From positions 1 to 47,628 of IMG/VR virus record IMGVR_UViG_3300010883_000055: a stretch of DNA of 47,628 nucleotides, one strand, 5' to 3'. A program made the position numbers and the translations under genes. Each line of letters starts with the position of its first letter. Position 1 is the stretch's first letter. The DNA comes from a virus. Shown here one piece after another: positions 1 to 28,786 of this stretch. The notes beneath the pieces were generated by a model. That model made no database searches, had not been told where the DNA came from, and saw only the letters and a list, made by a program, of their open reading frames with translations.

Positions 1-1671
1 ACAGCAAGCCAAGAAGCTTATTACGCTATGTTCGATGAAAGAGAATCGGTTAATTATGACACGCAGGCTTATTTGTCAGCCAGTATGGGGGCAATGACTG
101 CGACACAACCCTATACTTTTGGAGCGTGGTTATACCCTACTGATTCAACAGCTACCAGATATATTGGTTTCTGGACAGCCCCTTCCTTAACCAGCGGCCA
201 GCGCTATCTTTATAGAAATTCCGCTGGAAGTCTGCTTTTTACTAGTAGGTATACTGGCGTCGACGTGAATGCATACACCCCGATTGGCGCGCTGCCCCAA
301 AACGTGTGGACTCATATAGCACTTAGCCATAATCCATCCGATCTTGCCGCTTTACCCACCCTATATATTAATGGGATATCATCCTCTTTCACCCTGCTGA
401 CCTTTCCCCCGACAGGGACACCCCAAGACGCCGTTGGCTTCTCGGTAGGAGGCTGGGGAGACGATGCAAGCAATTGGAGTGGATCGATTGACGATGTTGC
501 CTACTATAATTCAGTCCTTTCCGCAGCTGAGATTCTTGAAATTTATAACAATGGGTGCCCTGTCGATCTTAAATCTTTGGATAGCGTTTCCTCGCTGGCA
601 AATTGGTGGATCAACGGAGATGGTCCCAGCGATGCCATTCGATTAGGGGAGCCACCCACCGAAGTAAGCATCTATGATCAAGTTGGAAGTCAAAACCTCT
701 ATGCAACAGGCAGCGGCGGAATGAAAATCGTTTCGGGCCCTTGCGCAGAGCAAGCACCAGGAGGTAACAGATCGACTGGAGAGCTTATTAACTATGCGGG
801 CGCCCAAACAAGCTATTATACCAAGAAATTCTTCGGAAGAGGTTCCCAATATTATTATAAACGTCCTATATTAGAAGCCTGTTGGGATTCAGCTGTTAAA
901 GATGATCGCGGCCGCATACATCTAAGCAGTTCTTTATTAACTGGCGAAGAAAATCTCTACAATCTTTATATTTATAATATTTTTGCAGGACGCCTAAGAA
1001 ATATTCCGGCTGTAGGTACGGGCCCTATTTATATGAGAATTTTCACCGAGGCAGCCGGCGGTACAGAGTTATCAGCTTTTGCAGCTGATAGTAACGGGAA
1101 TTACCCTATTACTGGCGGTCATGCATCTGCGGGACTATATTCTTCTTCTTTTTATATTGATTCAACTGGGAAAACTCTTGATACCGTGTATGACAGGTGG
1201 TACGACGCAGCGGGAACTACATGTTATCATACTGGAGCCTTTACACCATCAATCCACCGGTCCGATGGATACCACCCAGCAAGTATGAAATATGTTTCAA
1301 ATATTACAAATTTGGACCCCGGCTATACTCCAGATGATACAGTGCGCTTGAGACTGTTCACACGATTAAAAAACTGGTCTCCCACCATTTATACCGTCGC
1401 CAACTCGCTCATTGAAACCTCCATTATTGTCAGTGCCTCTTATCAAATTCATAGAGTTATCGACGATCTACCGATCATTCCCTATGGAACAGGAAGTGAT
1501 AACTGTACCCTCCTATCTTATGATATATCGGGAAATTATTTTGATTTAAATATGAGTTATTTTGAGCCTGGATATGCATATGGAATAAAAATTGCTTTTT
1601 ATGATGAAAATTCCTATGTGGAACAACCATATATATGGAAATTTAGGGTTAATGAATTAGATGAGTATTAG
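1..1671 (+). CDS. LamG-domain structural protein (5' end outside window)
   Basis: The reading frame is open from base 1, and the nine codons before the first ATG (position 28) contain no stop and no ribosome binding site, so the true start is probably outside the window. Counting from that ATG, residues about 20-175 look like a concanavalin/LamG jelly roll: 'FGAWLYP', then 'NVWTHIALSH', then 'PTLYINGI', ending with 'SGSIDDVAYYNSVLSAAEI'. A segment 'NNGCPVDL' followed by 'WWINGDG' comes next, and the same arrangement recurs in the next gene near residue 2230 ('NEGCPTDL', 'WYRMGDA'). The C-terminal third is beta-rich and unrecognised. LamG domains in phages usually belong to tail fibres, baseplate adhesins or capsid decoration, so binding of host-surface glycans is an inference. 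The stop overlaps the next start by 11 bases, suggesting translational coupling. Confidence 0.8.
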   Translation, partial: TASQEAYYAMFDERESVNYDTQAYLSASMGAMTATQPYTFGAWLYPTDSTATRYIGFWTAPSLTSGQRYLYRNSAGSLLFTSRYTGVDVNAYTPIGALPQNVWTHIALSHNPSDLAALPTLYINGISSSFTLLTFPPTGTPQDAVGFSVGGWGDDASNWSGSIDDVAYYNSVLSAAEILEIYNNGCPVDLKSLDSVSSLANWWINGDGPSDAIRLGEPPTEVSIYDQVGSQNLYATGSGGMKIVSGPCAEQAPGGNRSTGELINYAGAQTSYYTKKFFGRGSQYYYKRPILEACWDSAVKDDRGRIHLSSSLLTGEENLYNLYIYNIFAGRLRNIPAVGTGPIYMRIFTEAAGGTELSAFAADSNGNYPITGGHASAGLYSSSFYIDSTGKTLDTVYDRWYDAAGTTCYHTGAFTPSIHRSDGYHPASMKYVSNITNLDPGYTPDDTVRLRLFTRLKNWSPTIYTVANSLIETSIIVSASYQIHRVIDDLPIIPYGTGSDNCTLLSYDISGNYFDLNMSYFEPGYAYGIKIAFYDENSYVEQPYIWKFRVNELDEY

Positions 1672-4600
1672 AGACCTTTTTGACAAAAAAGCGCCGTATG
1701 CCGTAGTTTCCCTTACAGACACGGTTAAGCTCGGAGATCAAGTAGAATCAGTCGATAATATTAAACAAAAATATATCGAAAGGAAAACTTTCATTCCAGG
1801 AGTTAGTTATGAAAATCCAGCTAACTTCGCTAAATTTGGCTCTGCTAAAAAATATTATCTTGATTCATTAACAAGGATGTATGATCAATATCCTTATGAT
1901 GGATCTCTAAAAGAGCGAACAGAATTTTTAAATAAATCTACCTATTTGGATACATATATCTTTTCGGAACGCTATCCCCGAACTAATGGATTCATTGTTC
2001 TGGGCTCCAACGGAGCGGCATGGTCCGGAGCGTCCGTTGGCTTTATTCCTTTAACTACCCCGGGCTCAGAAGAATATGTGGAATTTATAGGTGGCCCCCA
2101 CGCAGCGCCTTCCCAATATATCCAAGATCCCATATCCAAACAGTTCTCATATGCTAATGTATATAATGCGGAGTCCAATCAAGAATCTAATCTTCAGATG
2201 AATCTGACAGGCGGCGCCAGTGTGGAATTCTGGTTCAAGCACGGTACCGCCTATGCACCTTTCGGTGGTTCCCCCACCATTGTAGAAACTATTGTGGATT
2301 TAGTATCTGGGAGTGCTGTCCTCCCCTCTAGATTGAATATTAATATAGATCGATCTGCCGCTACCCCGAATCTCTATCAATTTAATTTTTCTATTCAAAG
2401 CCTCGGCGCCCCCGGAGTGATCCTCACAACCGCCCCAACTCCCATAGGTTCTCTAGAAAACTGGCATCACTATGCTTTTACTGCTATAAACTCCGGCTCC
2501 GGAACCGAACTGAAATTTTATATGGACGGTGCCCTAGTTCAAACCACTTTCGATGTTGATCAGGCGGTGCCCATAAATTACATATCGGGGACCTTGGGCG
2601 CCCTGTCTATGGAAACTATCGCCGGCGTATCTAAAGGAGACGCCAAAACCTCTGGATCATTTGATGAATTCCGTTATTGGAAAACAAAACGGTCTTCTCA
2701 AGATATAGGGCGCTATTGGTTTACCCAAGTGGGAGGAGGAGCAAATACGGATCCTTCTAACGTAAATCTTGGAGTTTATTATAAATTTAATGAAGGTATC
2801 ACCGGTCAAAGATCTACCGATTCTAAGGTTTTAGATTATTCAGGACGTATTACTAATGGAGATTGGATAGGATACCCCGGTTCCGCAGCACGCTCCATCG
2901 AATCAGCCATGGTTTTATCCAAGGCAGCTAAATTCGAGTTTAAAGATCCTATTATTTATCCTTTTCATCCCGCAGTCGCCACCCTTCAAGAAAAATTAAG
3001 TGTTACAGGGTCTATTTACGATCGTAATAATAATGCGGGCCTCTATACATCGCTACCTTATTGGATTATAGACGAAGATGAATCCGGAGCGGGAAATCTT
3101 TCTGATTTAACTCAAATAATGGCAAGTTATTTTGATACTTTATATCTCCAAATCCAGGCCGTGTCGAAAATAAAAGATATGACTTATGACCAGGATTATA
3201 TAAAGCCAGCCCCTTTTTCTAATAAGTTATTAGAATCATATGGTTTACAAGCTCCAGAAATATTTGTTAATGCGGACATTATTTCACAAATACTTAATCG
3301 AGATGAAAATCTTCAGTTTGATGATCAATTAGAAGATATTAAAAACTTGATTTATAAAAATATCTATAATAATCTTATTTATATCTATAAATCTAAAGGG
3401 ACCATGAAATCTCTTAGAAATCTAATCCATTGTTATGGAATAGATGAAGACTTAATTCGAGTTAATACATATGGTAACAATGTTGTTTATACTTTCGAAG
3501 ATAATTTTAGATCTAAGTCTCAACGCAAAAAATATATTGATTTCAATAGTCCTGATCGATTTTCATCTACCATCTATGAGCAAACAGCTAGCGGTAATCC
3601 GAATAGCGTTTCTTTTATCACTGGTAGCGGGTTTGGAGATTTCAGTCAAGAGGGATTCTCATCTCTAACTTTTGAAACTGAAGTTATTTTTCCTCACAAA
3701 TGGGGGAAATCCGACCCTGAATGGTTTGCCACTCCTTTCTTAAGCTCTTCTTTATTCGGTTGGCATAGTGCAGACCCAACCACTCCAGAAGATTTTACAT
3801 GGCCAGTAAATGATTGGAGTATGCGAGCATATGCAGTTCGAGATCAATTAGAATCGCATAATGTATATTTTGAATTGTTGGCTGAAGGGCCCGGAGGGAC
3901 TCCTTCTTTTTCTTTAACAAGCAGTTTATTTTATGACGTGTATGAGAATGAAAAATGGAATTTCGCTGTCCGGGTATCTCCCGATAAGGTGGGAGGAGAT
4001 TTAGTTTCAGGTACTCTAGGAGCTACCGAAACCACTTTTCAGGTGGAATTTTATGGAGTCAACTCTGAGGTAGATGTAGTAGCTAACGAATTTTATATCT
4101 CCACGGGATCATTAAATCTTCTCGCTGGGGGGCATCTCGTACAACCGAAGCGCATTTATGCTGGAAGCCATCATACTAATTTTACAGGCTCAATTATAGA
4201 TTTTACTGATGTTAAGCTTTCTTCAGTAAGATATTGGGCGAGTTATTTAAACAATGATGTTATTAAAGCACACGCGCGCGATGCGGCTAATTTTGGAACT
4301 CATCAGCCATATAAAAGTACCTATTTATATCTTACTGACTTAGCAGATATTCAGATTCCCCAAATGGAGACATTAGCTCTTCAATGGGATTTTAATAATG
4401 TATCTTCTTCAGGAGATGGCCTTGTTCCCAACGCTCCCGACGCGGGATTCGCGGTACAAGATTTATCCTCTGGGTCTTTGACTGATCTTGCCGCATACAC
4501 AGCGGGCAACCCGGATGGAAATTTTGGGGGGATTATCCATCTTCAGCATACAGGGCGTGGGGATTTCTTTAGAGCGAATGACCCCAAAGTAGTGGATCTA

Positions 4601-7600
4601 CGGTTTGTTTATAGTGGTAAACAAGTCATTCCCGAAGTGGTTCAAAGCGCAGATATGATTGACATCCTTAGTACTGACGACATTGTTTTTACTAAAGATA
4701 GTCGCCCTATTGATTATTATTTTCAAATTGAAAAGAGTATGTATCAAACCATTTCGGATGAAATGTTAAATATTTTTGCCACTATTGTAGATTTTAATAA
4801 TCTTATAGGGGATCCAGTTAACCGATATCGCTTAAAATATAAAAGGATGGAAAAGTTACGACAACTTTTCTTTAAAAGAGTTCAAAATACGCCCAAATTA
4901 AATGAATATATTAAATTTTATGAGTGGATTGATGGCTCTCTGAATATCATGTTACAACAACTATTACCAGCTTCGGCGAATTTTAGTGACAATATTCGTA
5001 ATATGGTAGAGGGGCATATTTTAGAAAGGAATAAATATGATAATAAGTTCCCCACTTTAGAGATGATCCCAGCTGACCCAGAAACGGGTTTGCGCGGGAT
5101 TAATGAGCTTCTTTATAACTGGAAATTCGGTCATGCCCCAAATGGGAATATCGGTATTCCGTCTCCTCAGAATGAAAACTGTTTCTGGTGGAAAGAACGA
5201 GCGTCACGCCAGCGCCCAGGATTAGCATCACCAGATAGCGCTGTAAACTTTGATAAAAATCAGTATCTCAGCGCGTCTCTTCAAGTTTTAGAGAGGAGTT
5301 ATACGACCCCCTATCGCATGGATATAAATAGAAGTAGACAAATTCAAGGTGGCTATAACCGACCTAAAAATCAAAAAAGAGATTTTGTTCGCTCGGCCAT
5401 TTCTTTTGGAACGAGCGATGGATTACAATTATTTGATTTACCAGGCAATAGTAATGATAATATAAAAGATTGTGTAGATGATTTAGCATTAAGATCCAAT
5501 ACTCCTTATTATGGCATGGGAATAAGAGCTATTCCTGAAGTAGAATATCAAACTAATAAATTAAGTCTCTTTGCCCCTCTTACACTAACCAAAGTTTTAC
5601 CTGACACACAGGCTGTCATTACCAATTACCACGAAGATACTTACGGCGATGATTATGAAGTCCCGGCCCAAGGGCCCTTTACAGATTACGCAGTTGGAGG
5701 CAACCAATACCGCCACGTACCCCTCAACGACGGAACAGATAATGTAACCAATCGCATGGAAGGGTTTCAAGTCGCTCCTCTCCCGGGCGGCACCGCTTTG
5801 TTGCATCCGGAGGTTCATAATCCGCGAGGGGTTTATTATCGCGATGAAATCGCCAAACGCCCAGTTAATATTCGAAATATTCATCATCGAACAGGGTCTA
5901 CCATTTTAGGAAATTATGACCACATATACGATGTTGTACAAACATGTGGAAGGTATACTAATAACCGCGCTTTCGTAAAAGCTGGAGGCTTTAACATCGC
6001 ACCCCCGCTTTCTTATTCGGATTGGGTTTTGGATATTGCGGCCATTCAATATGCCGAAGTCCAACGCGGCCGGACTCCACACGTATTTGTAAACCGATTT
6101 TCTTCTCCTGGCGGACCAGAAACCGCCGGCGATTCTAATGGAGGCCCAGGCCTAGATCGCTATTCGGCAGAGTTCTCAGCTTATAACAATCTTAATTATC
6201 GCAATTCCACTGTGCGCAAATTTTTACAACTATTCCAGACATCCCATGTAGGGCAATTTGGCTATTATACTAACTCCCAACATATTAATGGACTAAGCGG
6301 ATCTGTTGTTAACTCCTTTAACTACAATGGAACTGGGTCCATATATCAAGTTAATCGAAATCCTGTTTCACGTCGTCTCAATGAAACAACAATGGTTTCG
6401 GGCACAAGCACTTTTAGTCTAAGTTGTTCGGCATTTGATGCTAGCGCTGTCAACCCGAGCCCGAATACGGGCCCAGGTTGCAACCCCGTTGCTGATTATT
6501 TGAGTCTTGACAGATATAACTTCCCCGGCCAATTCGCCAGTATCCCCACCTATCATTTTAATTTTGCTACTCAAAATTTTACTATTTCGGTATGGGTTAA
6601 AACAACACATACTATTATCGGTGGAGGCCAAACAGATTATATTATTTCTAATGCCGTTCATGGCCCTGCACCAGCACCCATAAAACATTGGAAATGGGCG
6701 ATATTTGCTAGACCCGACGGAACTGATCCCCTCAAAAGCAGGATTTATGGCACAGTTGGCGGCGCCGGAGTCAGCCCTCTGACAATAACAACTATAACCT
6801 CCCCGACTATTCAAATTAATGATGGGGAATGGCATCATTGTCTTTTAACGAAGGGCGCCTCTGGTGGGGGGAACTTTGATTTTTATGTAGATGGAATACA
6901 TTTAGGAACAGCCGGCATGGACGATATCACCGGCGGCGCCAGTAGTAGTCCTATTTTTATTGGTTCCGTCGCAGAGTATGACAACACGGCCGGCGCATGT
7001 AATAGTGTTTATCGCCCCTGTACAAGCGTCTCTATCCCTCCTAATACAGGTGGAGGGTTTAGTGGCTTTATCGATGATGTCACTATCTGGGAAACAGATT
7101 TTTCGGCCGATGAGGTCTTAGCATTATATATTCGACCGGTGACTCCGGGGTGCACTGGCCCACCTGTTGCCGCACCAGGAAATATATTTGAGATCGTTTG
7201 GCCCGGACCAACTAATCCGATGGGGAATTTACTCGGATATTATCTTATGGGTGACGGGTCGACCGATATTCCGGGAAATATAAAGAATTATGCGGGGGGA
7301 CTGGAACCAAATCTTCCTGTACTCCCAAGTGCCGAAGGCATAAATATAGGTATAGTGGTAGCCGAGCAGCAGCCAGTAGCCTGTATATCTTACACTCAGC
7401 CCACCGGATGTAAAAAAATATATGATAATTATTATATTCAACACGCCATTCCCCAGACTGATTGCCAATACACATGGACAACTGCCTCGATTCTTGATTG
7501 TCAAGGAGATGTTTGTACTACGGGATATTGGCCTTATAGTGGAATGGAAGGAAATGCACCCGCTGTTAACTTCGTAAGCTCTAGTGCCTTCAAAGTAGTT

Positions 7601-9361
7601 TATGCCAGCGGAGGATCTGAAGATGATTGGTATTCTGCGAATGAAAAAAAATCATGGGGATCTTCCTCTGCCGACCCTATAACTGCTTTAACGCCTTTTA
7701 TTGCCATTCCTAATAATGATTTGGGCGTTCCTCCTTTCGGAAGTCCAACTCCCTACCCTCCAGGATGTAACCCAAGTAACTTTACGGTCTCGGCTTGGTT
7801 TAAGATACATCAGAACCAATTACCCACCGCCGGCACAGACCCCGTAGTAATCATGTCCCGATGGAAAAGTGATGGCGGCATTACTGATTTCCAAAATTCT
7901 GATTGGCGCCTCGGTGTTGAACGCCACGGACTTCTACAATTTGATATAATAGATGGACCAACGCTATCCATGCGAACAGTACTGTCACCAAACAATCCCA
8001 TTGGAACATCCGGAATTCCAGCCGGTTCTTGGGCTGATGATAAATGGCATAATGTGATAGCTAGCTTAGATACTCGCGCCTTTGGGCTGACGTGCCGGTG
8101 GAGCATGAGAATATGGGTAGACGGTATAATCACCAACGGCCTTAACCCTGCAGGAGGCCAAACACGCGCTGCATCCAATGACGGCCGCGTCGTCATCGGG
8201 GCCCAGTTTGACTCCTTCGCCGGCGGCGGTCCTTATGGGGAGGGTGTTATAAACGCATGGCCTATTGGTAACTTGGACGAAATATCCTGGTGGAGCCAAG
8301 ATTTTATACTTCCCTTTGCCAATACATACGCTGTTGACCTTTATAACGAGGGATGCCCCACTGATCTTACAACTCACGCTGCAGCACCGACGCTGGTTTC
8401 ATGGTACCGGATGGGAGACGCTCCGGGGGATGGAGGGATGAATGGAGATCCTATATACGATGTCATTGGACCAAATGATGGGATTAATATTAATAATGAC
8501 TGCGTAGATTTTCTCCGTCCCGGAGAAGTACCCGGAACTGTATGTTCGTGCTCAATCCCCACCACTTTTTATCAAGATTTTGCGGGAATTAATAGCATTA
8601 TTGTAGATACCGTGTATCCCGAGATGGCTTTATTAAGTTCTTCGGGAAATTCCTATCAAAATACTGATTTTGCTTATTTATGTCCACAGAATAGCCCGTC
8701 GCCAGATGAATTACATGCTCTTCTTCTTCACCGCGATGGACCTGGCGGCTGGCCTACATGGAAACAGATACGCGGAAAAGATAATGCCTTAACACGCTAT
8801 TATAATAATCATAATCTTATAACATGTAACAGAACCCCCGGTATCACACGCACGGTTTTACGTCCGCCGCCCGCAAGTGTAAGATTCGTAAGAGATCGCT
8901 TCGCACCGTTGAAGATATTTAAGGAACCAGCCTTAACCTCGGATTCGGCTATTTTAAGGCATACACTGGGGTGCCGCACGATTAATGCGGGGGAGGATAA
9001 TAGAACTAAACCTTTCACTACAATGCACCCGATTACGGTAAAACATTCCTTTGGAAATAATTTAGAACTATTTACAAGTACCCAGTTGAATGAATGTGCA
9101 GAAGTTGGAAAATGTGATTTCCAAGCCTATGATACAATCACTAAATGGTATTTAAATGGCCAACTTGAACAAAATTCGCTGCCCATTTATAGTTTCATAG
9201 AGATGAGATATCAGGAAAAAATATTTCCTGCTGCTAATAACTCCTTTTTAAAACAAAATAGAGAAAGAATAGGATATAAAAATGGATATTGGAGAGATAA
9301 TCGACGAGATCGATCAAAACTTGGAGAAACCAAATGGGGAGAGGAGACAATATGCCATTAA
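1661..9361 (+). CDS. giant multi-LamG tail/baseplate structural protein (2566 aa)
   Basis: Very large virion protein, probably at the tail tip or baseplate. Visible LamG-like units lie at about residues 165-355 ('VEFWFKHG', 'NWHHYAFTA', 'GSFDEFRYWK'), 656-870 (divergent, 'SSVRYWASYL'), 1633-1823 ('ISVWVKTTH', 'GEWHHCLLTKG', 'FIDDVTIWE') and 2036-2230 ('VSAWFKIHQ', 'DKWHNVIASL', 'NLDEISWW'). Between the first two is an alpha-helical core with 'YKSKGTMKSLRNLIHCYG' (about 576-594), reminiscent of the KGT-type motif in P2 gene I-like tail proteins. A Cys-containing stretch with 'GCKKIYDNYYIQH' (about 1910) and 'LLLHRDGPGGWPTWKQIRG' (about 2352-2371) are motifs I recall from other large aquatic-phage structural proteins. 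This points to a baseplate component carrying several carbohydrate-binding domains. It overlaps its neighbours at both ends. The exact role is unproven. Confidence 0.85.
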   Translation: MSIRDLFDKKAPYAVVSLTDTVKLGDQVESVDNIKQKYIERKTFIPGVSYENPANFAKFGSAKKYYLDSLTRMYDQYPYDGSLKERTEFLNKSTYLDTYIFSERYPRTNGFIVLGSNGAAWSGASVGFIPLTTPGSEEYVEFIGGPHAAPSQYIQDPISKQFSYANVYNAESNQESNLQMNLTGGASVEFWFKHGTAYAPFGGSPTIVETIVDLVSGSAVLPSRLNINIDRSAATPNLYQFNFSIQSLGAPGVILTTAPTPIGSLENWHHYAFTAINSGSGTELKFYMDGALVQTTFDVDQAVPINYISGTLGALSMETIAGVSKGDAKTSGSFDEFRYWKTKRSSQDIGRYWFTQVGGGANTDPSNVNLGVYYKFNEGITGQRSTDSKVLDYSGRITNGDWIGYPGSAARSIESAMVLSKAAKFEFKDPIIYPFHPAVATLQEKLSVTGSIYDRNNNAGLYTSLPYWIIDEDESGAGNLSDLTQIMASYFDTLYLQIQAVSKIKDMTYDQDYIKPAPFSNKLLESYGLQAPEIFVNADIISQILNRDENLQFDDQLEDIKNLIYKNIYNNLIYIYKSKGTMKSLRNLIHCYGIDEDLIRVNTYGNNVVYTFEDNFRSKSQRKKYIDFNSPDRFSSTIYEQTASGNPNSVSFITGSGFGDFSQEGFSSLTFETEVIFPHKWGKSDPEWFATPFLSSSLFGWHSADPTTPEDFTWPVNDWSMRAYAVRDQLESHNVYFELLAEGPGGTPSFSLTSSLFYDVYENEKWNFAVRVSPDKVGGDLVSGTLGATETTFQVEFYGVNSEVDVVANEFYISTGSLNLLAGGHLVQPKRIYAGSHHTNFTGSIIDFTDVKLSSVRYWASYLNNDVIKAHARDAANFGTHQPYKSTYLYLTDLADIQIPQMETLALQWDFNNVSSSGDGLVPNAPDAGFAVQDLSSGSLTDLAAYTAGNPDGNFGGIIHLQHTGRGDFFRANDPKVVDLRFVYSGKQVIPEVVQSADMIDILSTDDIVFTKDSRPIDYYFQIEKSMYQTISDEMLNIFATIVDFNNLIGDPVNRYRLKYKRMEKLRQLFFKRVQNTPKLNEYIKFYEWIDGSLNIMLQQLLPASANFSDNIRNMVEGHILERNKYDNKFPTLEMIPADPETGLRGINELLYNWKFGHAPNGNIGIPSPQNENCFWWKERASRQRPGLASPDSAVNFDKNQYLSASLQVLERSYTTPYRMDINRSRQIQGGYNRPKNQKRDFVRSAISFGTSDGLQLFDLPGNSNDNIKDCVDDLALRSNTPYYGMGIRAIPEVEYQTNKLSLFAPLTLTKVLPDTQAVITNYHEDTYGDDYEVPAQGPFTDYAVGGNQYRHVPLNDGTDNVTNRMEGFQVAPLPGGTALLHPEVHNPRGVYYRDEIAKRPVNIRNIHHRTGSTILGNYDHIYDVVQTCGRYTNNRAFVKAGGFNIAPPLSYSDWVLDIAAIQYAEVQRGRTPHVFVNRFSSPGGPETAGDSNGGPGLDRYSAEFSAYNNLNYRNSTVRKFLQLFQTSHVGQFGYYTNSQHINGLSGSVVNSFNYNGTGSIYQVNRNPVSRRLNETTMVSGTSTFSLSCSAFDASAVNPSPNTGPGCNPVADYLSLDRYNFPGQFASIPTYHFNFATQNFTISVWVKTTHTIIGGGQTDYIISNAVHGPAPAPIKHWKWAIFARPDGTDPLKSRIYGTVGGAGVSPLTITTITSPTIQINDGEWHHCLLTKGASGGGNFDFYVDGIHLGTAGMDDITGGASSSPIFIGSVAEYDNTAGACNSVYRPCTSVSIPPNTGGGFSGFIDDVTIWETDFSADEVLALYIRPVTPGCTGPPVAAPGNIFEIVWPGPTNPMGNLLGYYLMGDGSTDIPGNIKNYAGGLEPNLPVLPSAEGINIGIVVAEQQPVACISYTQPTGCKKIYDNYYIQHAIPQTDCQYTWTTASILDCQGDVCTTGYWPYSGMEGNAPAVNFVSSSAFKVVYASGGSEDDWYSANEKKSWGSSSADPITALTPFIAIPNNDLGVPPFGSPTPYPPGCNPSNFTVSAWFKIHQNQLPTAGTDPVVIMSRWKSDGGITDFQNSDWRLGVERHGLLQFDIIDGPTLSMRTVLSPNNPIGTSGIPAGSWADDKWHNVIASLDTRAFGLTCRWSMRIWVDGIITNGLNPAGGQTRAASNDGRVVIGAQFDSFAGGGPYGEGVINAWPIGNLDEISWWSQDFILPFANTYAVDLYNEGCPTDLTTHAAAPTLVSWYRMGDAPGDGGMNGDPIYDVIGPNDGININNDCVDFLRPGEVPGTVCSCSIPTTFYQDFAGINSIIVDTVYPEMALLSSSGNSYQNTDFAYLCPQNSPSPDELHALLLHRDGPGGWPTWKQIRGKDNALTRYYNNHNLITCNRTPGITRTVLRPPPASVRFVRDRFAPLKIFKEPALTSDSAILRHTLGCRTINAGEDNRTKPFTTMHPITVKHSFGNNLELFTSTQLNECAEVGKCDFQAYDTITKWYLNGQLEQNSLPIYSFIEMRYQEKIFPAANNSFLKQNRERIGYKNGYWRDNRRDRSKLGETKWGEETICH

Positions 9362-12300
9362 ATTCACAGTTTAAATTAGTATGCTCTCAAAGCGCGTGGC
9401 CTCTAGATGCATCTACCCACTTTTTATTAATGAACGTGCCCATGGGCTGCTATTGTTCAGCAAGTGCTAACCCTTTAGCGGGTGACCCTGGTGAATTACA
9501 AAATCATTATACTATAGTTCACTCTAATCATGGTGATATTTATGCAGCCGTTACTTGTAGTGGTTTATCCCCTTTGGGAGACCCAGGCCTCGGCCCAGAT
9601 TTAATACCTTCTATAGAGAATCTTCCCGGGAATCCCGGAAGCGGACCGATTTATAATCGAACTCATACTTTGTCGGCCAATCAATCTTTTTCGCAACCCA
9701 CGGGTATGCATATTTATCAAACTCAAAGTATCGAGGTACAATTAATAACAGCATATTCAGACGCCAATCCATTAAGCGGCACTCACCCCATAGGTTTCCC
9801 GCAGCTTTACGCCGGCAATGCCCTCTGGGAAACAGATCGTTTAGCTAACTGTGAGAGCTATTATCCTATTATTAGATCTAGTTCCGCGCAAGGCGTTGTA
9901 GCTGGTGTCGAAAATCTTGTAAACCCCTTTTATGATGATTATCCTAAATATAATGAATTGATGCGACTTAAAAACCAGGATTATTCTATTATACCCGAAT
10001 TTCGTATAAGTGAACATTTGCCCTTTTATTTAAATGAAAGAAAAGGAAACTTCTTGGCCATCAATGCATCGGAATTCGAGATTCCGGGGGTGACTGGAAG
10101 TGAAACTTTCTGGATATCTGGGGAAAACAACATTGCCGAGCAAGTCGAAGCCCAAAATCTTCAGAATAGCTCACAACCTAATTTTTATAAAATATATTCT
10201 AATTCGGATTTTATGAAACAGTTTAGTCGCGTCCGACATGATCACGAAGATTTTGTAGATCCCACAACCATTAAGTTAACCTGCAAAGCTTTATTAAAAT
10301 TAAATCCTTATGATGGGTTTTATCCAGCTGACAGAACACTTCAAATAGCCCATTTAGCTAAAATGGATTATGGTTCCCACCTCACGCCTCATATTTCAGG
10401 CGCCGAGGCGGTAGGAAATATAGTTGGGGAACTCTTGAGTAATCCCACCAGCGCGTCTGCGGTATCGTGGACTCAGCGCCCCTTTTGGAGCATTCTCTTT
10501 GGCCCGGGACTTTTATATAATTCTATTAAATCCGGGATGGCGGTAGATTACCCCGTTTATACAGGCTCTTATGCTAACGTTAATTATCAAACCGCTGTTT
10601 CTGGGGCCGGCACTGGAACCGGCACTGGATTTGGAACCGCCACTGGAAGTTTAATGTGGGCCCTCGGGACTGGATCTCTTGGAACCGGCGGATTTGATTA
10701 TCGAGTACCTTTTGAAGCTCTGGTAGAGCCCCATCGTTATTTGGCCAATAACATTCCGTTGTTTGATATGGAGCCTAATCCGGATGCGGGCTATAACTAT
10801 GGATTTTATAAAGATAGTCAAAATAATTTACCCCTTCCTACTTCTAATATTTTTCAAAAATATCCGGAAACGGCCTCTTTCTGGGAATCTTTGAGTATTG
10901 CATGGAATGGTAATCAGAATACTGGTTTATATGTACGCGCAATAAATAATTTCTTGGGGGAAGTACCCGAATTCTTTTTACCACGTGGAAAGTTTTCGAG
11001 CATTTCGTCCGCCAAAGAGCAAGAGTTCGGCAGTGTAGTATCAGGCAATTATTATGGTATGAGAGTAAAACTTTATCGGACCATGGATGGAGAAAGACAG
11101 TGGTCCACGCGCGGGCTAAACCATGATGGTGAATCGGTTATTGATTTTGAACTGCCGCAAGATCCTATCAATGCTAGGTTCTCGGAGCCCCCATTAAAAG
11201 AAAATTTTACTTTATATTCACGACCTTCTGCTTTTGGACCTCCGTGTGCTGCTACTGGGAGTTTTGCGACTGGAGAATATTATCCAACCCTCCCCTCCAC
11301 ATTAGGTGCAGTGTTCGGCAATCCTCTCTTGCGTTTAAGGAATATAGGCCGTAGACCATCTGACGCCACGCAAGGTTTTTATTGTCCCTACACTCCCCCC
11401 TATAAAGATGGAGAGGCATGGGCAGATATTATTTTTAGACCCCCTGTATCTAGGGATACTGGGGAGTTAACTATTAATGAGATACAAAACAATATGATGA
11501 TCTTACTCCAAAGAATAGATCCACTTGTATATGGAGAAATACAAGAGCAGTTTATGTACAACGCCGATGGCCTTGCAGCAAATGACTATCATCATCCCAG
11601 TTATGACTCGACATGGTATAACGAGGGAGTTGGTTCTCAAGGGAACACGCGTCTCAATGCTATTTGGAACGCTACCAGCGGCACCGGCGGCCTGATTGGC
11701 CCGGATATCGAATCTGCTTTCGTTGACGCAAGGTATCCATTAGGCGCCTTCTCTGCAAACAATTATGCAATGCAATTAAATGCCTCAATTAATCTATTCG
11801 GCCGTGAGGATAATAGATGGGTGATGCAACCTAAATTTGAAACCCCTCATTATAATTTTAATAATATCAAAAGCGATGTAGGCTATATCCCCCCTGCAGA
11901 TGGACCATCAGAAACTTCTTCCGCTACTAATCCGAATAGTGTCGCCATATCTCTTCATGGGTCAGAATCTGTTCCACGCGGTATGTGGCACCAATTTGGG
12001 CAAATGGAAGATCAAAAAGGGATTTATTTAGAAATAAACGACATTCCACAAAACTATATTGAACATCGATTAATAAATCATTGGCCAGCAGACCAATTTG
12101 GAGGAGGACTGAGTTTTTGGTATCCGGGTCGATCTCGCATTGGATCACGCGAGCCGGGGGTAACCGAGATTCAAAGTGCTTATTACGGTTTTGAACCAGA
12201 TTCAAGCCCAGTTTTCCCTTATGGGCCGGCCAATGGAACTCCGTCGCCCGGGATTCACTCATTAGCAGATATATTGGGATTTAAGAATTCCATCCGGTTG

Positions 12301-13335
12301 GGCCAAACAGCTAATAGTAAAACTATTTACGAGGCGGTTGTAGCAGTTCCATTTTTAGAAAAAGATGGAGAGAGAAAGTTTTTTGAAATTCCTCGGCAGG
12401 TTATCGCCATCGCTTCTGGAGATTTGAGTGGTACCGATGCAATCGACCGCGCGAAAGCCAATGTGACAGCAACCGGACAAGCTATTTCGGAAGCGTTATT
12501 GCCCCTACAAAATGATGATATTATTACTGGAGCCGACGCGTCGGCAGCAATAGCACAAGGAGCAGCTACAGCGGGAGCCAATACTACTACAGCGGGAACA
12601 GGTGAATTGGTCCAAAACAAACAAATTTTATCTATGGTTAACAAAATGAAAAAGTTTATTTTTCCACCTCGCATGGACTTTATTAAAAACACAGAAATCA
12701 CCCCTTTCGCCATGTATATTTTTGAGTTTCGAGCCACACTTTCACAATGTGATTTATCTAAAATATGGCAAAATGTACTACCAGATATTGGGCGCAGTTT
12801 TGAATCTCAAGAAGTTTCGATTTCGCATAAATTGCTTTCCAACGAATTAATGGGAAATTTTGAGGGAGTCCATCAAGAATCACCCAAAGACGAAGTACAA
12901 TGGATGGTCTTTAAAGTCAAACAACGCGCCCAAGATAGCTATTTTGAAAAAACGATCAGATATAAAAATGATAAGACTAAAAATGTTTCCTTTGATTATA
13001 GTTATAACTGGCCCTATGATTATTTTTCTTTAGTGGAGTTTGTTAAAATGGACGGATCAATTGGATTTGGAACTGAGTTGGCTGCCGATTTGAAAGTCTT
13101 GGGAACAATGGATGGTTCTAACACCAGCACGGCCGATTTATTAGATAAGGGAGTCCGTTCAGAAAGACCGCTCGCTGGCCTCGCTTCTCAATTGCTTGCC
13201 GAAACCAAAGGAATGACCAAAGAAGAAAAGAAGACAAGCAATATGGAGAAACGTTCGGAAAAACGAAAAGATCAACTAGAAAAAGGAGCTTTCGGGAATT
13301 CTACGAGAACTCCGAAGGACAAAGATAAAAAATGA
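9352..13335 (+). CDS. large virion structural protein (1327 aa)
   Basis: I prefer the ATG at 9352 over the in-frame ATG at 9334, because GGAGAGGAGA lies a few bases upstream of 9352; the overlap with the preceding stop is then 10 bases. No catalytic motif is visible. A Gly/Thr-rich low-complexity stretch ('GTGTGFGTATGS') lies near residues 416-446, and an Ala/Thr/Gly-rich stretch precedes the C-terminal part. Residues about 1093-1243 ('MKKFIFPPRMDFIKN', 'MYIFEFRATLSQCDL', 'SYNWPYDYFSLVEFVKMD') look like a compact, better conserved domain, followed by a Lys-rich tail. Position inside a run of giant tail genes suggests a baseplate or tail-associated protein. The family is not recognised. Confidence 0.8.
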   Translation: MPLNSQFKLVCSQSAWPLDASTHFLLMNVPMGCYCSASANPLAGDPGELQNHYTIVHSNHGDIYAAVTCSGLSPLGDPGLGPDLIPSIENLPGNPGSGPIYNRTHTLSANQSFSQPTGMHIYQTQSIEVQLITAYSDANPLSGTHPIGFPQLYAGNALWETDRLANCESYYPIIRSSSAQGVVAGVENLVNPFYDDYPKYNELMRLKNQDYSIIPEFRISEHLPFYLNERKGNFLAINASEFEIPGVTGSETFWISGENNIAEQVEAQNLQNSSQPNFYKIYSNSDFMKQFSRVRHDHEDFVDPTTIKLTCKALLKLNPYDGFYPADRTLQIAHLAKMDYGSHLTPHISGAEAVGNIVGELLSNPTSASAVSWTQRPFWSILFGPGLLYNSIKSGMAVDYPVYTGSYANVNYQTAVSGAGTGTGTGFGTATGSLMWALGTGSLGTGGFDYRVPFEALVEPHRYLANNIPLFDMEPNPDAGYNYGFYKDSQNNLPLPTSNIFQKYPETASFWESLSIAWNGNQNTGLYVRAINNFLGEVPEFFLPRGKFSSISSAKEQEFGSVVSGNYYGMRVKLYRTMDGERQWSTRGLNHDGESVIDFELPQDPINARFSEPPLKENFTLYSRPSAFGPPCAATGSFATGEYYPTLPSTLGAVFGNPLLRLRNIGRRPSDATQGFYCPYTPPYKDGEAWADIIFRPPVSRDTGELTINEIQNNMMILLQRIDPLVYGEIQEQFMYNADGLAANDYHHPSYDSTWYNEGVGSQGNTRLNAIWNATSGTGGLIGPDIESAFVDARYPLGAFSANNYAMQLNASINLFGREDNRWVMQPKFETPHYNFNNIKSDVGYIPPADGPSETSSATNPNSVAISLHGSESVPRGMWHQFGQMEDQKGIYLEINDIPQNYIEHRLINHWPADQFGGGLSFWYPGRSRIGSREPGVTEIQSAYYGFEPDSSPVFPYGPANGTPSPGIHSLADILGFKNSIRLGQTANSKTIYEAVVAVPFLEKDGERKFFEIPRQVIAIASGDLSGTDAIDRAKANVTATGQAISEALLPLQNDDIITGADASAAIAQGAATAGANTTTAGTGELVQNKQILSMVNKMKKFIFPPRMDFIKNTEITPFAMYIFEFRATLSQCDLSKIWQNVLPDIGRSFESQEVSISHKLLSNELMGNFEGVHQESPKDEVQWMVFKVKQRAQDSYFEKTIRYKNDKTKNVSFDYSYNWPYDYFSLVEFVKMDGSIGFGTELAADLKVLGTMDGSNTSTADLLDKGVRSERPLAGLASQLLAETKGMTKEEKKTSNMEKRSEKRKDQLEKGAFGNSTRTPKDKDKK

Positions 13336-22885: not shown

Positions 22886-24127
22886 ATGCCTTTTAAAAAA
22901 TTTGCATCAGACGATATTTTTTATAATGTCATCAAAACATATCCAAACATTCAGGTAGATGTCTATAATAGCCAAACCTATCTTCAAAATGAAAATTTAG
23001 TACCTGGCGTATTCGCTCCGAGCGTTCCTTGTGTGCCTACAGGATATGTTTCTCTTTATGAGATGAATGTGGACCGGAATCAAAGCGAAACTGGATTAAT
23101 CTATCCTTTTATCGTAAAAAACGGTACCTTATCTAATTTTAAAACCATTTCTACAACTCAATTTGTTGAAGGGTTTCAATACGGGGATATCATAAGTAGC
23201 TCCTACCCTCTTTCAGCGAGTATCACACGAGAATACTGGCCCCAGGGTGCTGGTATGTTAGTTAAAACTCCATCTGGATGGACACTCACAGCCGGCCATC
23301 CTCGTCGACACCTTTACGCACTGGAAAATGTTTTAAATTATAATAAATATTTAAGTTATCATTATGCTTTTAGTTCCAGTTTAGGAGATAAAGCAGAACA
23401 ACAGATGGCACTTATTTCTATTCCATCGATTTTTTATGGGGCTGGCATTAAAAAAGGCACCGTAGATCTTAAATTCTATATTTCAGGATCTCTGATCGGC
23501 CGACTGCAAGATAGTCTTCAAAATGGAGAATTAATCCAGACTACTGGTAGTGGATACGCGCAGAGTCAAGGATCTGGGTCAACAGCAGGCGTAGTCTTAT
23601 ATAATCAGGGGTTTATTATATTAACGGGAAGCTGGGCCCTTGAAAACGGGGTCACACGCAACTATCAAGGCGGCCCCCCTCTACAACCATCGTCATGGAT
23701 ATTTTTTGGAACTGGCATAGGCGGCCATGAGAGCACATCAGGCGGAGAAATCCCACCCGGAACTCTTCTTAGTTCTAGCTTCAGAATGGAGTTCGAAGGC
23801 ACTCAATATGTCCCCACTATCACTATGTTTGCCAACGCAGACAAGGCGGAACTCAATTATTCTAATAATCCCACTTATCTCGTACATAGTCAATCTATGA
23901 TTCCCAGTACAGGCTCATATATTTATGTCGAGCCCCAGTTAACTATTAAAAACACGGTACAAACTCCGTATCCTGACCCCACTGGATCTTTTAAAAAAAT
24001 AACTTATATTTCTAAAATTGGAGTTTATGATAACATGGGGAATTTAATAGGGATCGCCTCAACGGCAACGCCAGTGAAAAAAACTGAAGACTTAGATTAT
24101 ACATTTAAATTAAAGTTGGATTTTTAA
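22886..24127 (+). CDS. structural protein, paralogue of the previous gene
   Basis: Preceded by GGAGATG at suitable spacing. The 413-residue product shares its C-terminal module with the gene at 21869: the NPTYL motif, a YIS/T..G.Y segment and a terminal LDF/LDY. Its longer centre is rich in Gly and Ser ('SGYAQSQGSGSTAGVVLYNQ'). No transmembrane segment or catalytic motif is seen. It is the last gene of the structural trio, and its TAA is directly followed by the ATG of the RuvC-like nuclease. Virion location is inferred. Confidence 0.8.
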   Translation: MPFKKFASDDIFYNVIKTYPNIQVDVYNSQTYLQNENLVPGVFAPSVPCVPTGYVSLYEMNVDRNQSETGLIYPFIVKNGTLSNFKTISTTQFVEGFQYGDIISSSYPLSASITREYWPQGAGMLVKTPSGWTLTAGHPRRHLYALENVLNYNKYLSYHYAFSSSLGDKAEQQMALISIPSIFYGAGIKKGTVDLKFYISGSLIGRLQDSLQNGELIQTTGSGYAQSQGSGSTAGVVLYNQGFIILTGSWALENGVTRNYQGGPPLQPSSWIFFGTGIGGHESTSGGEIPPGTLLSSSFRMEFEGTQYVPTITMFANADKAELNYSNNPTYLVHSQSMIPSTGSYIYVEPQLTIKNTVQTPYPDPTGSFKKITYISKIGVYDNMGNLIGIASTATPVKKTEDLDYTFKLKLDF

Positions 24128-24649
24128 ATGATATTAGGATTAGATGTAAGTACTAGCATCGTGGGGGTCTGTGTTCTAAAAAATGACAAAATTGTTCATA
24201 CTGCATACATTGATTTGAGAAAAATAAAGAACTTTTTTGAGAAAGGGCAAGAAGTCGAGAATACTTTAAAGGATATAAAGAAAAATTTTAAAATTGAATA
24301 CATTTATATTGAGCAAGCACTCATGTTCTTCCGCCGAGGAGGCTCGACTGCTAACACTATGTCAATTCTTCAACGATTTAATGGTATTGTATCCTGGATA
24401 TGTTATAATGTATATGGTATGGAGCCGAATTATGTAACGCCGATCGGCGCTCGCTCTAAATGTGGCATAAAAGTCAAAAGAGGCGAAAAAGCTAAGGAAA
24501 TTGTCATGAAGCATTTCATCGACAACGAAGATTTCGGTATTATCTATACCAAGAAAGGTAATATCCAGAAGTATTGTTATGATATCGGAGATGCCATTAT
24601 TGTTGCACGTGCTGGGTATATTTTACAAGAAGGATTAAAAAAGGCTTGA
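24128..24649 (+). CDS. RuvC-like Holliday-junction resolvase / RNase H-fold nuclease
   Basis: The 173-residue protein has the RuvC layout: 'ILGLDVSTSIVGVCVL' at the start (D6), 'IEYIYIEQAL' (E62) and a C-terminal 'YDIGDAIIVARAGY' (D152, D155), the expected acidic metal-binding set of the RNase H fold. The length equals cellular RuvC. The probable role is cutting branched DNA during late replication before packaging, the job done by endonuclease VII (gp49) in T4, which has a different fold. The start directly abuts the upstream stop with only a weak binding site (GTTGGA), so it may be read from the upstream transcript. Its stop codon overlaps the -35 box of the next promoter. Confidence 0.82.
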   Translation: MILGLDVSTSIVGVCVLKNDKIVHTAYIDLRKIKNFFEKGQEVENTLKDIKKNFKIEYIYIEQALMFFRRGGSTANTMSILQRFNGIVSWICYNVYGMEPNYVTPIGARSKCGIKVKRGEKAKEIVMKHFIDNEDFGIIYTKKGNIQKYCYDIGDAIIVARAGYILQEGLKKA

Positions 24650-24680: not shown

Positions 24681-25619
24681 ATGAATGAAAGGCTATCTAT
24701 TCTCTCTAATATCCTTGGATCACATTTTCAAACGAACGATGAGCATTTGTTTTTTTGTCCTTATTGTAAGCACGAAAAGAGAAAATTTTCTGTCAATTTG
24801 AAAAGGAATGTCTATAAATGCTGGATATGTAACCAACGCGGCAGATCCCTTTATAGGGTCGTCAGGCGCTTTGGATCCTTCAATGAGCAGGAAGGTTGGA
24901 GAGCCCTCACCGGCGCGCCTAGAGAGGACCTAAGCCGCTTTGAAACCCTATTTGAGAGTGAAAAGCCAGATGAAATCATCCAGGTGGTGGACTTGCCAAC
25001 AGACTTCAGAAGTTTGACACATAAAAAGCTGGATTCTTGTGGCAAAAAGGCGTTGCAATATTTAAAAAATCGAGGAATTGATAAGAAAGATATTCTGGGG
25101 TGGAAAGTTGGCTATTGTACATCGGGCCGCTATCGTGACAGAGTTATTTTCCCGTCTTTTAATGAGGACGGAAATGCAAATTATTTCGTGGCTAGATCGC
25201 TTACCGAAGGAGATTTTAAATATCTCAACCCGGCCGCCAGCCGTAATATTATTTTTAATGAGTTATACTTGAATTTCGAGAAAGAGATAACAATTGTCGA
25301 AGGTATTTTCGACGCAATGAAGGCTGAAAATGCCGTCCCAATCCTGGGATCAACTCTATCAGAATATTCTGTGCTTTTTAAGAAGATTATCAAGTATGAT
25401 ACACCGGTCCTTTTGGCTTTAGATAAAGACGCTGAATGGAAGGCAATTAAAATTAAACGTTTGTTATTAAAATATGGTATCGAAGTGAGAGAACTAGATT
25501 TGGAAGGGTATGAAGACGTTGGTGAAATGTCTAAAGATGAGTTTAAACGTTTATCATCTGTTGCTTCTTTTATTCAAGAAGAGAATATTCTTACATCTCT
25601 CTTTTCTAATATCAACTAG
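24681..25619 (+). CDS. DnaG/gp61-type DNA primase
   Basis: A 312-residue primase with an N-terminal CHC2-like zinc ribbon, C26-P-Y-C29 and C47-W-I-C50, and a TOPRIM domain. The TOPRIM glutamate motif is 'IVEGIFDAM' (E207), and the metal-binding 'ALDKDAEW' carries D248 and D250. It would make RNA primers for lagging-strand synthesis with the phage helicase, which is not in this window. Size is close to T4 gp61 (342 residues). No Shine-Dalgarno sequence precedes the ATG, and the strong promoter 7 bases upstream implies a leaderless start. Followed 8 bases later by the recombination fusion gene. Confidence 0.85.
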   Translation: MNERLSILSNILGSHFQTNDEHLFFCPYCKHEKRKFSVNLKRNVYKCWICNQRGRSLYRVVRRFGSFNEQEGWRALTGAPREDLSRFETLFESEKPDEIIQVVDLPTDFRSLTHKKLDSCGKKALQYLKNRGIDKKDILGWKVGYCTSGRYRDRVIFPSFNEDGNANYFVARSLTEGDFKYLNPAASRNIIFNELYLNFEKEITIVEGIFDAMKAENAVPILGSTLSEYSVLFKKIIKYDTPVLLALDKDAEWKAIKIKRLLLKYGIEVRELDLEGYEDVGEMSKDEFKRLSSVASFIQEENILTSLFSNIN

Positions 25620-25627
25620 GAGAAAAA

Positions 25628-28600
25628 GTGAAATTTGCCCACATTGCAGATACACATATTCGTAATTTAAAATATCATTACGAATATAAAATTGTGTTTG
25701 ATAAAATATATCAAACGTTAAGAGACGAAAATGTTGACTATATTGTCCATTGCGGCGACATAGCTCATACAAAGACCCAAATCAGTCCGGAATTCGTGGA
25801 GATGTGTACAAATTTCTTCCGTAGTTTGGCAGATATTGCACCAACTTATATTATTTTAGGGAACCATGACGGGAATTTAAAGAATTCTAGTCGACAAGAT
25901 GCGTTAACACCTATTGTAGAAGCTCTCGATCATTTTAATCTTCATCTATTAAAGAATTCTGGAGAAGTCTCTTTGGAGGGAGATTTTGTGCTGAATGTTT
26001 TGTCAGTTTTTGATGAAGATAACTGGACGCAGCCAAGTGACCTAGATAAAATTAATATTGCCCTATATCATGGTTCTATTTCGGGTGTTAAAACCGATAC
26101 TGGGTGGGTGATGCAGCATGGCGATCACCCGCTAGAAATTTTTACGGGTCTGGACTACGGGTTTCTTGGCGATATTCATAAAACTAATCAGTGTTTGGAC
26201 GAGGGGGGATATATTCGCTATCCTGGCTCTACTATCCAACAAAACTTTGGTGAGACCAATGATAAAGGGTTCTTGATTTGGGAAATTGATAGCAAAGAAG
26301 ACTTTACGTGCCGTCATATTCAGATTGACAATCCACGCCCGTTCATTACTATCGACTTAACATCCAAAGGTAAAATGCCCAAGAATGTTGAAAAAGCAAT
26401 TCCACAAAAAGCTCGTTTGCGTCTTGTATCTCACAACAACCTTCCTTTGAACGTGATGCGTAAAGCAATAGAAATTGCGAAGAGCAAATTCAAGCCCGAA
26501 AGTGTTACTTTCTTAAATCGTGCTGCGGGGGACCATGCCAATGTAGATGAGCTTGCCTCTTCCTTACAAACTGAAGATCTTCGAGATATTATTGTCCAAG
26601 AAGACTTAATAAAAAAATATTTGAAAGATTTCGATCCATCAAAAAATTTGATGGAGAAAGTCCAACAACTAAATTTGAAGTATAATCAATTAGCCGAGGA
26701 AAACGAAGAAGTCTCTCGCAATATCAATTGGAAGTTGCGGGAAGTCGAGTGGGACAATCTCTTTAATTATGGGGAGGGAAATTCTATTAATTTTGATAAT
26801 TTAAATGGAATTGTCGGGATTTTTGGGAAGAACTTTTCTGGGAAGTCTAGTATCATTGATTCAATTTTGTATACCATCTTCAACTCGACTTCTAAAAATG
26901 ACAGGAAAAATCTAAATATCATTAATCAGAACACAGGCACCGGCCGAGGCCGTATAAAAATCTCTATTGGGGAAAATGATTATTTTGTTGAGCGAGAATC
27001 AGAAAAATATACGCGCAAGCTCAAGGGAGTCGTCACCGACGAGGCCCGGACTAATGTAGATTTTACGATGTATAACGCATCTACGGATAATATTCAAACC
27101 CTGAATGGGCTCACTCGGAATGATACGGATAAAAACATCCGTAAGACCTTCGGCACATTAGATGATTTTCTTTTTTCATCAATGTCTTCTCAACTGGGCG
27201 CCCTAGCTTTTATTAGCGAAGGGTCGACCCGCCGCAAAGAAATCCTAGCTAAATTCCTTGATTTGGAGTTTTTTGACAAGAAATTTAAATCAGCCAAAGA
27301 GGCAGTCGCTGACACACGTGGAGCGCTCAATAAATTAAAAGGCAGAGATTATGATGAAGAGCTTGGCGCCGCCGGCGCTGAGTTAGGTGGGTATAATACA
27401 AATCTTATTAAACAACAAGCGTCGTGCAACGAATATAATATTTCTATCCAAGAAAAAGTTCAACAACGGGCAGACATAGCCACCCAGATTGAATCTATCC
27501 CAGCAGAAATAATTGATGTTGTGATAGTTCGCACGGATTTGCGTGACACAAAGAACCAAATAATTTCTTTATCTGATACAAACCAGACATTACTCCTAGA
27601 AGGTGATGAAAAGAAAATACAATATCAAAAAATTATTGACTTTATCGAGAATTTTGATATTAAAAGCCTGCATGAAGATCAGGATAAGATTGATGAAATG
27701 GTCGCAGAAATGGAAGCAATAGAATTAGACTTGAATAGAGAAGAAGGAGATTTAGAGCGTAATATCAATAGAGTTCAACTGCTAAGCGGTATTCCGTGCG
27801 GCACAGAGTTCCCGACTTGTAAATTTATTAAAGATGCCTATGTCTCCCGAGCGACGATTCCAAGCAATAAACAAAAAATTGAGATTTTTGAAGATTCTAT
27901 TGAAGATATAGCTGATCAAATTTCCCTAATTAATCCAGAACGCGTTGAAGAGCACATAAACAAATATAATCAGGTAGTTGAAAGGAAGAATACCCTATCT
28001 AATGACATAACTAATTCGGATTTAAGCGTAGAAAAGAACTCCTCTATTATTAAAGATTTAATGAGCCTGGTATTCTCTCTTGAAGAGAAGCTGACAGAAT
28101 ATGAGCTTAACAAAGAGGCCATTGAAAATTTGGAAAGCTTGCTTAAAAGGAAAAAGGCACTAAAGTGGGAAGCAACTAAATTAAAACGTTCCTACGACAC
28201 GTGTCAGGAGTCTGTGTTAGCTCTTTATAAGACCATAGGTTCTTACGAGCAAAAAATAGAAAATATCAAAGAACAAAAGCAACAATTCACGGATTTACGT
28301 GACGAATATTCGGCTTATGATCTTTATTTGCGGTGCATGCACCCTAACGGAATTGCTTATGATATTACCAAAAAACGACTTCCGATCATTAACGAAGAGA
28401 TAGCCAAGATTTTGGCGAATATTGTTGATTTTGAAATATTTTTCGAAGATGACGGTAAAAAATTAAATATTTTTATAAAACATCCAGAGTATAACCCGCG
28501 CCCCTTAGAAATGGGATCTGGCGCCGAAAAAACAATCGCTGCGGTCGCTATTCGTTTGGCTTTATTATCGGTTTCGAGTTTGCCTAAATCAGATATTTTT

Positions 28601-28786
28601 GTTTTAGATGAACCCGGTACAGCCCTAGATGAAGAAAATATGCAAGGTTTTATTGATATTTTAGATCTAATTAAATCGTATTTTAAAACGGTTTTGTTGA
28701 TTTCCCACGTCGATTCTTTAAAAGATTGTGTAGATATGCAAATCACTATTGATAAAAAAGAAGGTTATGCTTTCGTTCAACAGTAA
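25628..28786 (+). CDS. fused Mre11/SbcD-like nuclease and Rad50/SbcC-like ATPase (gp47-gp46 fusion)
   Basis: GTG start with AGGAG five to six bases upstream. Residues 1 to about 340 are a calcineurin-type nuclease like SbcD/gp47: 'IADTHIRN' (D8, H10), 'VHCGDIAH' (D44), 'LGNHDGN' (N79, H80), 'LYHGSISG' and 'GFLGDIHKTNQ'. After a short helical linker, from about residue 370, comes an SbcC/gp46-type ATPase: Walker A 'GKNFSGKS' (400-407), long coiled-coil arms, a central C724-x6-C731 pair in place of the usual CxxC zinc hook, signature 'MGSGAEK' (962-968), Walker B 'FVLDEPGTALDEEN' (D994, E995) and 'LLISHVD'. In T4 these are two proteins (339 and 560 residues) that resect DNA ends for recombination-dependent replication. 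Here one polypeptide fixes a 1:1 ratio. Confidence 0.9.
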   Translation: MKFAHIADTHIRNLKYHYEYKIVFDKIYQTLRDENVDYIVHCGDIAHTKTQISPEFVEMCTNFFRSLADIAPTYIILGNHDGNLKNSSRQDALTPIVEALDHFNLHLLKNSGEVSLEGDFVLNVLSVFDEDNWTQPSDLDKINIALYHGSISGVKTDTGWVMQHGDHPLEIFTGLDYGFLGDIHKTNQCLDEGGYIRYPGSTIQQNFGETNDKGFLIWEIDSKEDFTCRHIQIDNPRPFITIDLTSKGKMPKNVEKAIPQKARLRLVSHNNLPLNVMRKAIEIAKSKFKPESVTFLNRAAGDHANVDELASSLQTEDLRDIIVQEDLIKKYLKDFDPSKNLMEKVQQLNLKYNQLAEENEEVSRNINWKLREVEWDNLFNYGEGNSINFDNLNGIVGIFGKNFSGKSSIIDSILYTIFNSTSKNDRKNLNIINQNTGTGRGRIKISIGENDYFVERESEKYTRKLKGVVTDEARTNVDFTMYNASTDNIQTLNGLTRNDTDKNIRKTFGTLDDFLFSSMSSQLGALAFISEGSTRRKEILAKFLDLEFFDKKFKSAKEAVADTRGALNKLKGRDYDEELGAAGAELGGYNTNLIKQQASCNEYNISIQEKVQQRADIATQIESIPAEIIDVVIVRTDLRDTKNQIISLSDTNQTLLLEGDEKKIQYQKIIDFIENFDIKSLHEDQDKIDEMVAEMEAIELDLNREEGDLERNINRVQLLSGIPCGTEFPTCKFIKDAYVSRATIPSNKQKIEIFEDSIEDIADQISLINPERVEEHINKYNQVVERKNTLSNDITNSDLSVEKNSSIIKDLMSLVFSLEEKLTEYELNKEAIENLESLLKRKKALKWEATKLKRSYDTCQESVLALYKTIGSYEQKIENIKEQKQQFTDLRDEYSAYDLYLRCMHPNGIAYDITKKRLPIINEEIAKILANIVDFEIFFEDDGKKLNIFIKHPEYNPRPLEMGSGAEKTIAAVAIRLALLSVSSLPKSDIFVLDEPGTALDEENMQGFIDILDLIKSYFKTVLLISHVDSLKDCVDMQITIDKKEGYAFVQQ

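Follow-up and report, generated by a model that had tools for sequence, protein, structure and literature searches.

A single-frame nuclease-ATPase gene

The viral DNA analyzed here (IMG/VR record IMGVR_UViG_3300010883_000055, positions 1 to 47,628; a 47.6-kb fragment, hereafter the window) contains one long reading frame in which an Mre11/SbcD-type nuclease is followed by a Rad50/SbcC-type ATPase. This raises the questions of whether the gene is a natural fusion, how the two halves are joined, and what such a protein would do for its phage. The gene and its ribosome-binding site are as follows.

25628..28786, plus strand: fused SbcD/Mre11-SbcC/Rad50 gene, 1,052 amino acids, GTG start, identified by its frame, Pfam, and PHROGs
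25618..25622, plus strand: Shine-Dalgarno sequence AGGAG, 5' of the GTG start of the fusion

Pfam placed Metallophos at residues 1 to 156 of the protein (E = 1.8e-12, above the cut-off), SMC_N at residues 370 to 1041 (2.2e-14), and AAA_23 at residues 377 to 620 (1e-8), while in PHROGs the SbcD family phrog_100 covered residues 1 to 450 and the SbcC family phrog_77 covered residues 182 to 1047. The open reading frame and both family searches bear out a preliminary description of this DNA, which had reported a single unbroken 1,052-residue frame encoding the nuclease and then the ATPase, and the motifs lie where it had placed them (D8/H10, D44, N79/H80, GDIHK at 181 to 185, Walker A at 400 to 407, the signature at 962 to 968, and Walker B D994/E995). 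Both domains are thus found in one polypeptide with the nuclease N-terminal, as in the R555 type of Mre11/Rad50 fusion.

We found relatives of the fusion on at least 394 IMG/VR contigs with a single-protein query and on at least 573 with an alignment query. The best 80 of the 394 related viral contigs, which come from many metagenomes and are 53 to 87% identical to the window protein, all carry the gene as one unbroken frame, in keeping with the earlier claim of a natural fusion, which is both genuine and conserved. At the aligned start column of the fusion and its relatives, the codon is ATG in 40 sequences, TTG in 18, and GTG in 3.

Two proteins might nevertheless be made from such a frame by internal initiation at the linker, giving a functionally split complex, and in-frame ATG and TTG codons do occur at residues 332 to 370. 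However, these codons lack a Shine-Dalgarno sequence in the window, and residues 290 to 400 of 81 relatives contain no conserved start that has one, whereas the true start of the fusion usually does; we consider internal initiation very improbable. The probability that an assembly or sequencing artefact joined two neighboring genes is negligible: nuclease and ATPase genes do neighbor each other in related phages (Pseudoalteromonas phage XG4 has 3 nt between them), but we found no support for the artefact itself, the cultured phage Mel-JY01 carries the same single coding sequence, and chance and misassembly are both excluded because the frame is unbroken in all 80 of the best relatives from so many metagenomes.

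The nuclease half carries an altered metal-ligand motif

25628..26332, plus strand: phosphodiesterase (nuclease) core, residues 1 to 235, with D8, H10, D44, N79, H80, H148, D182 (His in canonical Mre11), and H184
26342..26521, plus strand: Mre11-type capping domain, residues 239 to 298, from the AF2 model and a VIA match to SbcD 7dog_B over residues 1 to 298

The catalytic residues are invariant in 81 aligned sequences wherever letters are present, two rows being without letters at the D8/H10 positions and one at the D44-D81 positions. The calcineurin-type phosphodiesterase motifs DxH, GD, GNHD/E, and H are all conserved, with GHxH replaced by GDxH. The full motif set that had been claimed is present at the positions given for it, but its last member is not canonical: the sequence is GDIHK, compared to GHxH in canonical Mre11/SbcD and in T4 gp47, and the metal-ligand His is Asp in 81 of 81 sequences. 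Asp also occupies the His206 position in 12 of 13 phage fusions that group together, in contrast to His in eight of the nine split phage or E. coli nucleases tested. Replacement of the His206 ligand by Asp could alter nuclease activity. In a separate model of residues 1 to 369, the match to SbcD 7dog_B extended over residues 1 to 298 with a Z score of 25.7.

The Rad50-binding helices are retained and the joint is short

26588..26701, plus strand: helix-loop-helix of the Rad50-binding type, residues 321 to 358, from AF2, alignment to the 3tho_B and 3qg5_C C termini, and a conserved motif
26702..26725, plus strand: joint of the two halves, residues 359 to 366, from AF2 and alignment of Rad50 residue 1 at 366 to 368

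The AF2 model of the whole chain has a mean pLDDT of 81 and a pTM of 0.50, so the relative placement of its domains is unsure. Along the chain, it shows the nuclease, a cap at about residues 239 to 297, a disordered loop (299 to 320), two helices (321 to 335 and 339 to 358), a short joint, and the Rad50 lobes, and the helix-loop-helix is modeled with a pLDDT of about 83 to 92. Thermotoga maritima Mre11 chains that contain the Rad50-binding helices (3tho_B and 3qg5_C) align in order up to model residue 359 or 361, with an rmsd of 14 to 17 Å that probably reflects hinge differences, and Rad50 structures align from fusion residue 366 or 368, which corresponds to their residue 1, with Z scores of about 30. 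The preliminary description had expected the nuclease's Rad50-binding helices to be replaced or supplemented by a linker near residues 340 to 370; the model and the T. maritima alignment instead place these helices at residues 321 to 358 and leave only about residues 359 to 366 for the joint. Thus, the capping domain and the C-terminal Rad50-binding helix-loop-helix are predicted to be retained, with a joint of only about 8 residues. This is near the linker of 9 to 12 residues, spanning 28 Å, that was proposed for Mre11/Rad50 fusions in 2011 (Yoshida et al., PMC3175470).

The ATPase half has a Cys-x6-Cys apex

26726..27223, plus strand: Rad50 N-lobe, with Walker A at residues 400 to 407 (26825 to 26848)
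27224..27778, plus strand: outgoing coiled coil, residues 533 to 717 (AF2)
27779..27820, plus strand: hook apex, residues 718 to 731, C724-x6-C731 (IPCGTEFPTC), compared to CxxC
27821..28339, plus strand: returning coiled coil, residues 732 to 904 (AF2)
28340..28783, plus strand: Rad50 C-lobe, with the signature (962 to 968), Walker B/D994-E995, the D-loop, and H1027

The Rad50-type ATPase is complete, as had been described: the motifs, the AF2 model, and alignment to Rad50 structures agree on Walker A being separated from the signature and Walker B by an antiparallel coiled coil, with about 175 residues per arm in the model. Rad50 hooks are normally CxxC. In the window protein, C724 and C731 are instead separated by six residues, within a motif, PCGxxxPxCKFIKDA, that is conserved across highly divergent relatives inside a fast-evolving coiled coil. 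In the window's set of marine sequences, the spacing is Cx6-7C in 75 of 81 and CxxC in 6 of 81; a Cx5-8C hook is present in 37 of the 39 members checked in a second set of relatives, a frequency that is biased by the partial retrieval of this set through searches for the hook itself. The hook is CxxC in T4, E. coli, Mel-JY01, LR756508, XacN1, and the other named phages tested. No paper on a Cys-x6-Cys zinc-hook variant was found in the literature searched. We regard the Cys-x6-Cys apex as a putative zinc-hook variant in a protein that its fold and ATPase motifs still assign to SbcC/Rad50; its conservation breaks a motif usually treated as universal.

Genomic setting of the fusion

24128..24649, plus strand: RuvC-like Holliday junction resolvase gene
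24681..25619, plus strand: DnaG-type primase gene, directly upstream of the fusion, in a conserved replication/recombination block

The order RuvC, primase, fusion, small genes, terminase (TerL), and portal is conserved, and the portal and terminase sequences identify the carrier as a T4-like marine phage. On the contigs of 10 long relatives as assembled (120 to 204 kb), nothing but the fusion matches SbcD, and nothing else matches SbcC convincingly; two of them (G007 and G008) have marginal second phrog_77 matches only, likely to coiled coil. A RecA-family gene is present in 9 of these 10 contigs and in Mel-JY01. Among bacterial genomes, considered as a home of the fusion family, there was one match only, on a 24-kb contig of a metagenome-assembled genome whose length equals that of one of the viral contigs, and a plasmid search returned distant nuclease matches only. 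A Flavobacterium immuto phage shares the primase and portal and gave no SbcC or SbcD profile match; the genes after its primase, first suspected to be a divided fusion, proved unrelated when read.

Other features of these genomes are recorded here. The cumulative G-C minimum of the window lies at 24012, where the skew turns from negative to positive even though the main genes are all on the plus strand; this position separates the RuvC-primase-fusion block from large unassigned genes. Two very large open reading frames, at 1661 to 9361 (2,566 amino acids) and 9334 to 13335 (1,333 amino acids), have no PHROGs match. The 735-kb phage LR756501 (L087 and L003) has a fused protein together with a separate SbcC-type ATPase match.

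Proposed role in phage recombination

We think it probable that this T4-like marine phage makes SbcCD (gp46-gp47) as one polypeptide for end resection that feeds recombination-dependent replication. The M2R2 equivalent would be a pair of fusion chains in contact at the Rad50 heads, at the hook apex, and at the nuclease. Each nuclease would be docked in cis: the helix-loop-helix of a chain would hold it at the base of that chain's coiled coil, across the joint of about 8 residues. DNA access to the nuclease would be gated by the heads as they bind and hydrolyze ATP, and the nuclease, if active, would trim phage DNA ends and supply 3' ends for a RecA/UvsX-type phage recombinase, and the recombinase would then start recombination-dependent replication and repair. 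Post-translational processing of the fusion polypeptide is possible.

Alternatively, the fused enzyme might have a specialized role outside resection, such as host DNA breakdown or action against competitors or defenses, while host SbcCD or RecBCD resects. Such a role would fit the annotation of the T4 record, according to which gp46/47 also degrades host DNA, and the Asp at the His206 position, but we judge it unlikely given that the fusion sits in the RuvC-primase block and co-occurs with a phage RecA, and that the long relatives show no other convincing SbcCD match. Still less probable is a nuclease-dead clamp, in which the ATPase and tether are used and the nuclease is vestigial: one metal-ligand His is indeed Asp, but the family conserves the catalytic H80 and the remaining ligands, metal can also be bound by Asp, and Mimivirus R555 shares the substitution. 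A natural single-chain SbcCD is a handy object for stoichiometry-locked structural and mechanistic work.

Some relatives are split again inside the nuclease

A break within the nuclease active site, between GDIHK and YPGS and just after the former, divides the fused gene in a set of relatives that do not belong to the window's clade (L207, L238, L247, L208, L316-L318, L320-L323, L331, L339, L344, L350, and LR756508 [L002, LR756508.1]). Piece 1 of these genes ends in an acidic C-terminal tail with a net charge of -3 to -10 and piece 2 starts with a mostly basic head; both tail and head are missing in fused relatives. Between the halves in L320, L331/L350, and LR756508, three distinct lineages, lies an open reading frame of about 300 amino acids that resembles a homing endonuclease and has weak matches to Vsr/PvuRts1I/TnsA-type endonucleases; the L331 and L320 versions are 42.5% identical. 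The stop region of this gene overlaps the start of piece 2 (the head) in L320, L331, and L350, and all that is left of the gene in L323 is its final codons, NFSKIFTKKLWEKR followed by the stop. Fused relatives with 75 to 79% DNA identity to L331 on both flanks are without the insert. When split and fused labels are mapped on the tree, five changes are needed, of which at least four are forced by supported branches.

Restoration of the frame by frameshifting is unlikely, with the halves 45 to 930 nt apart in L208, L320, L323, L331, and LR756508. No Rfam family matched the window, LR756508, or Mel-JY01 loci, which gives no support to an intron at the LR756508 break. As a precedent, a phage nrdA gene was split by a homing endonuclease and retained its function, reportedly the subject of Crona et al. 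(2011). We give an even chance to the proposal that a mobile element cut the fused gene and contributed the strands by which two chains would dock to restore the nuclease; the tails would do the docking. Across its relatives, this enzyme occurs in three gene forms: as two genes, as one gene, or re-cut within the active site, where a mobile element is the probable agent.

Comparison with known systems

The comparison with T4 and E. coli in the preliminary description had implied that such a fusion was new. It is not: single-frame fusions of cultured phages are in GenBank, and Yoshida, Claverie, and Ogata reported Mre11/Rad50 fusions in 2011 from Mimivirus (R555), Bacillus phage 0305phi8-36, plasmids, and eukaryotes (PMC3175470). 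The window fusion belongs to this known R555-like class; the new elements here are the identity of its phage carriers and the variation in the protein.

Several named phages carry fusions of their own. Microcystis phage Mel-JY01, the nearest named relative in both of our trees, has a single 1,066-amino-acid fusion (WWT39521.1) that is 31% identical over nearly the full length and lies just downstream of a primase, but its hook is the canonical CxxC. The Bacteroidota phages Tenacibaculum pT24 and PTm1 and Chryseobacterium MA9V-1, as well as Sphingomonas phage PAU (gp288), have single-frame nuclease-ATPase fusions, which the trees place on the same side; these differ in being 1,301 to 1,326 amino acids long and 23 to 24% identical to the LR756501 fusion, with a CxxC hook and another gene neighborhood. 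Xanthomonas jumbo phage XacN1 also has a single fusion of 1,099 amino acids (ORF305), but both trees place it among T4-type split proteins, so that it counts as an independent fusion. On these trees, which are midpoint-rooted so that clade assignments depend on the root, fusion appears to have occurred independently at least twice in phages. The XacN1 fusion (L104:3396-6695) has an insertion within the Walker A region, GRNYDSVVDGQVDSNGAGKS.

T4 gp47/gp46 and E. coli SbcD/SbcC share the domains, catalytic motifs, and fold of the window protein, and T4-like phage relatives are a further point of likeness; both are, in contrast, pairs of separate polypeptides with GHxH and a CxxC hook. The best BFVD fold matches of the fusion are giant-virus DNA repair fusions of the R555 type. 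Like the window protein, Mimivirus R555 is a nuclease-then-ATPase chain with the His in the GDxxD motif, a retained helix-loop-helix, and the same reported Asp at the His206 position (PMC3175470). It differs in length (1,351 compared to 1,052 amino acids), whereas the window protein has the Cys-x6-Cys apex and is carried by a tailed phage with a T4-like terminase and portal. R555-like genes were abundant in marine viral fractions, their owners were argued to be phages or other aquatic viruses, and the metagenomic scaffolds that bore them also encoded primases whose closest counterparts came from SPO1, Twort, LP65, and A511 (PMC3175470). Since the window primase matches the same phage groups, these 2011 marine fragments probably came from the window's phage family, with R555 compared by description only. 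R555-like fusions that were conspicuous in early marine metagenomes, with owners then unknown, would thereby be tied to an abundant clade of T4-like phages.
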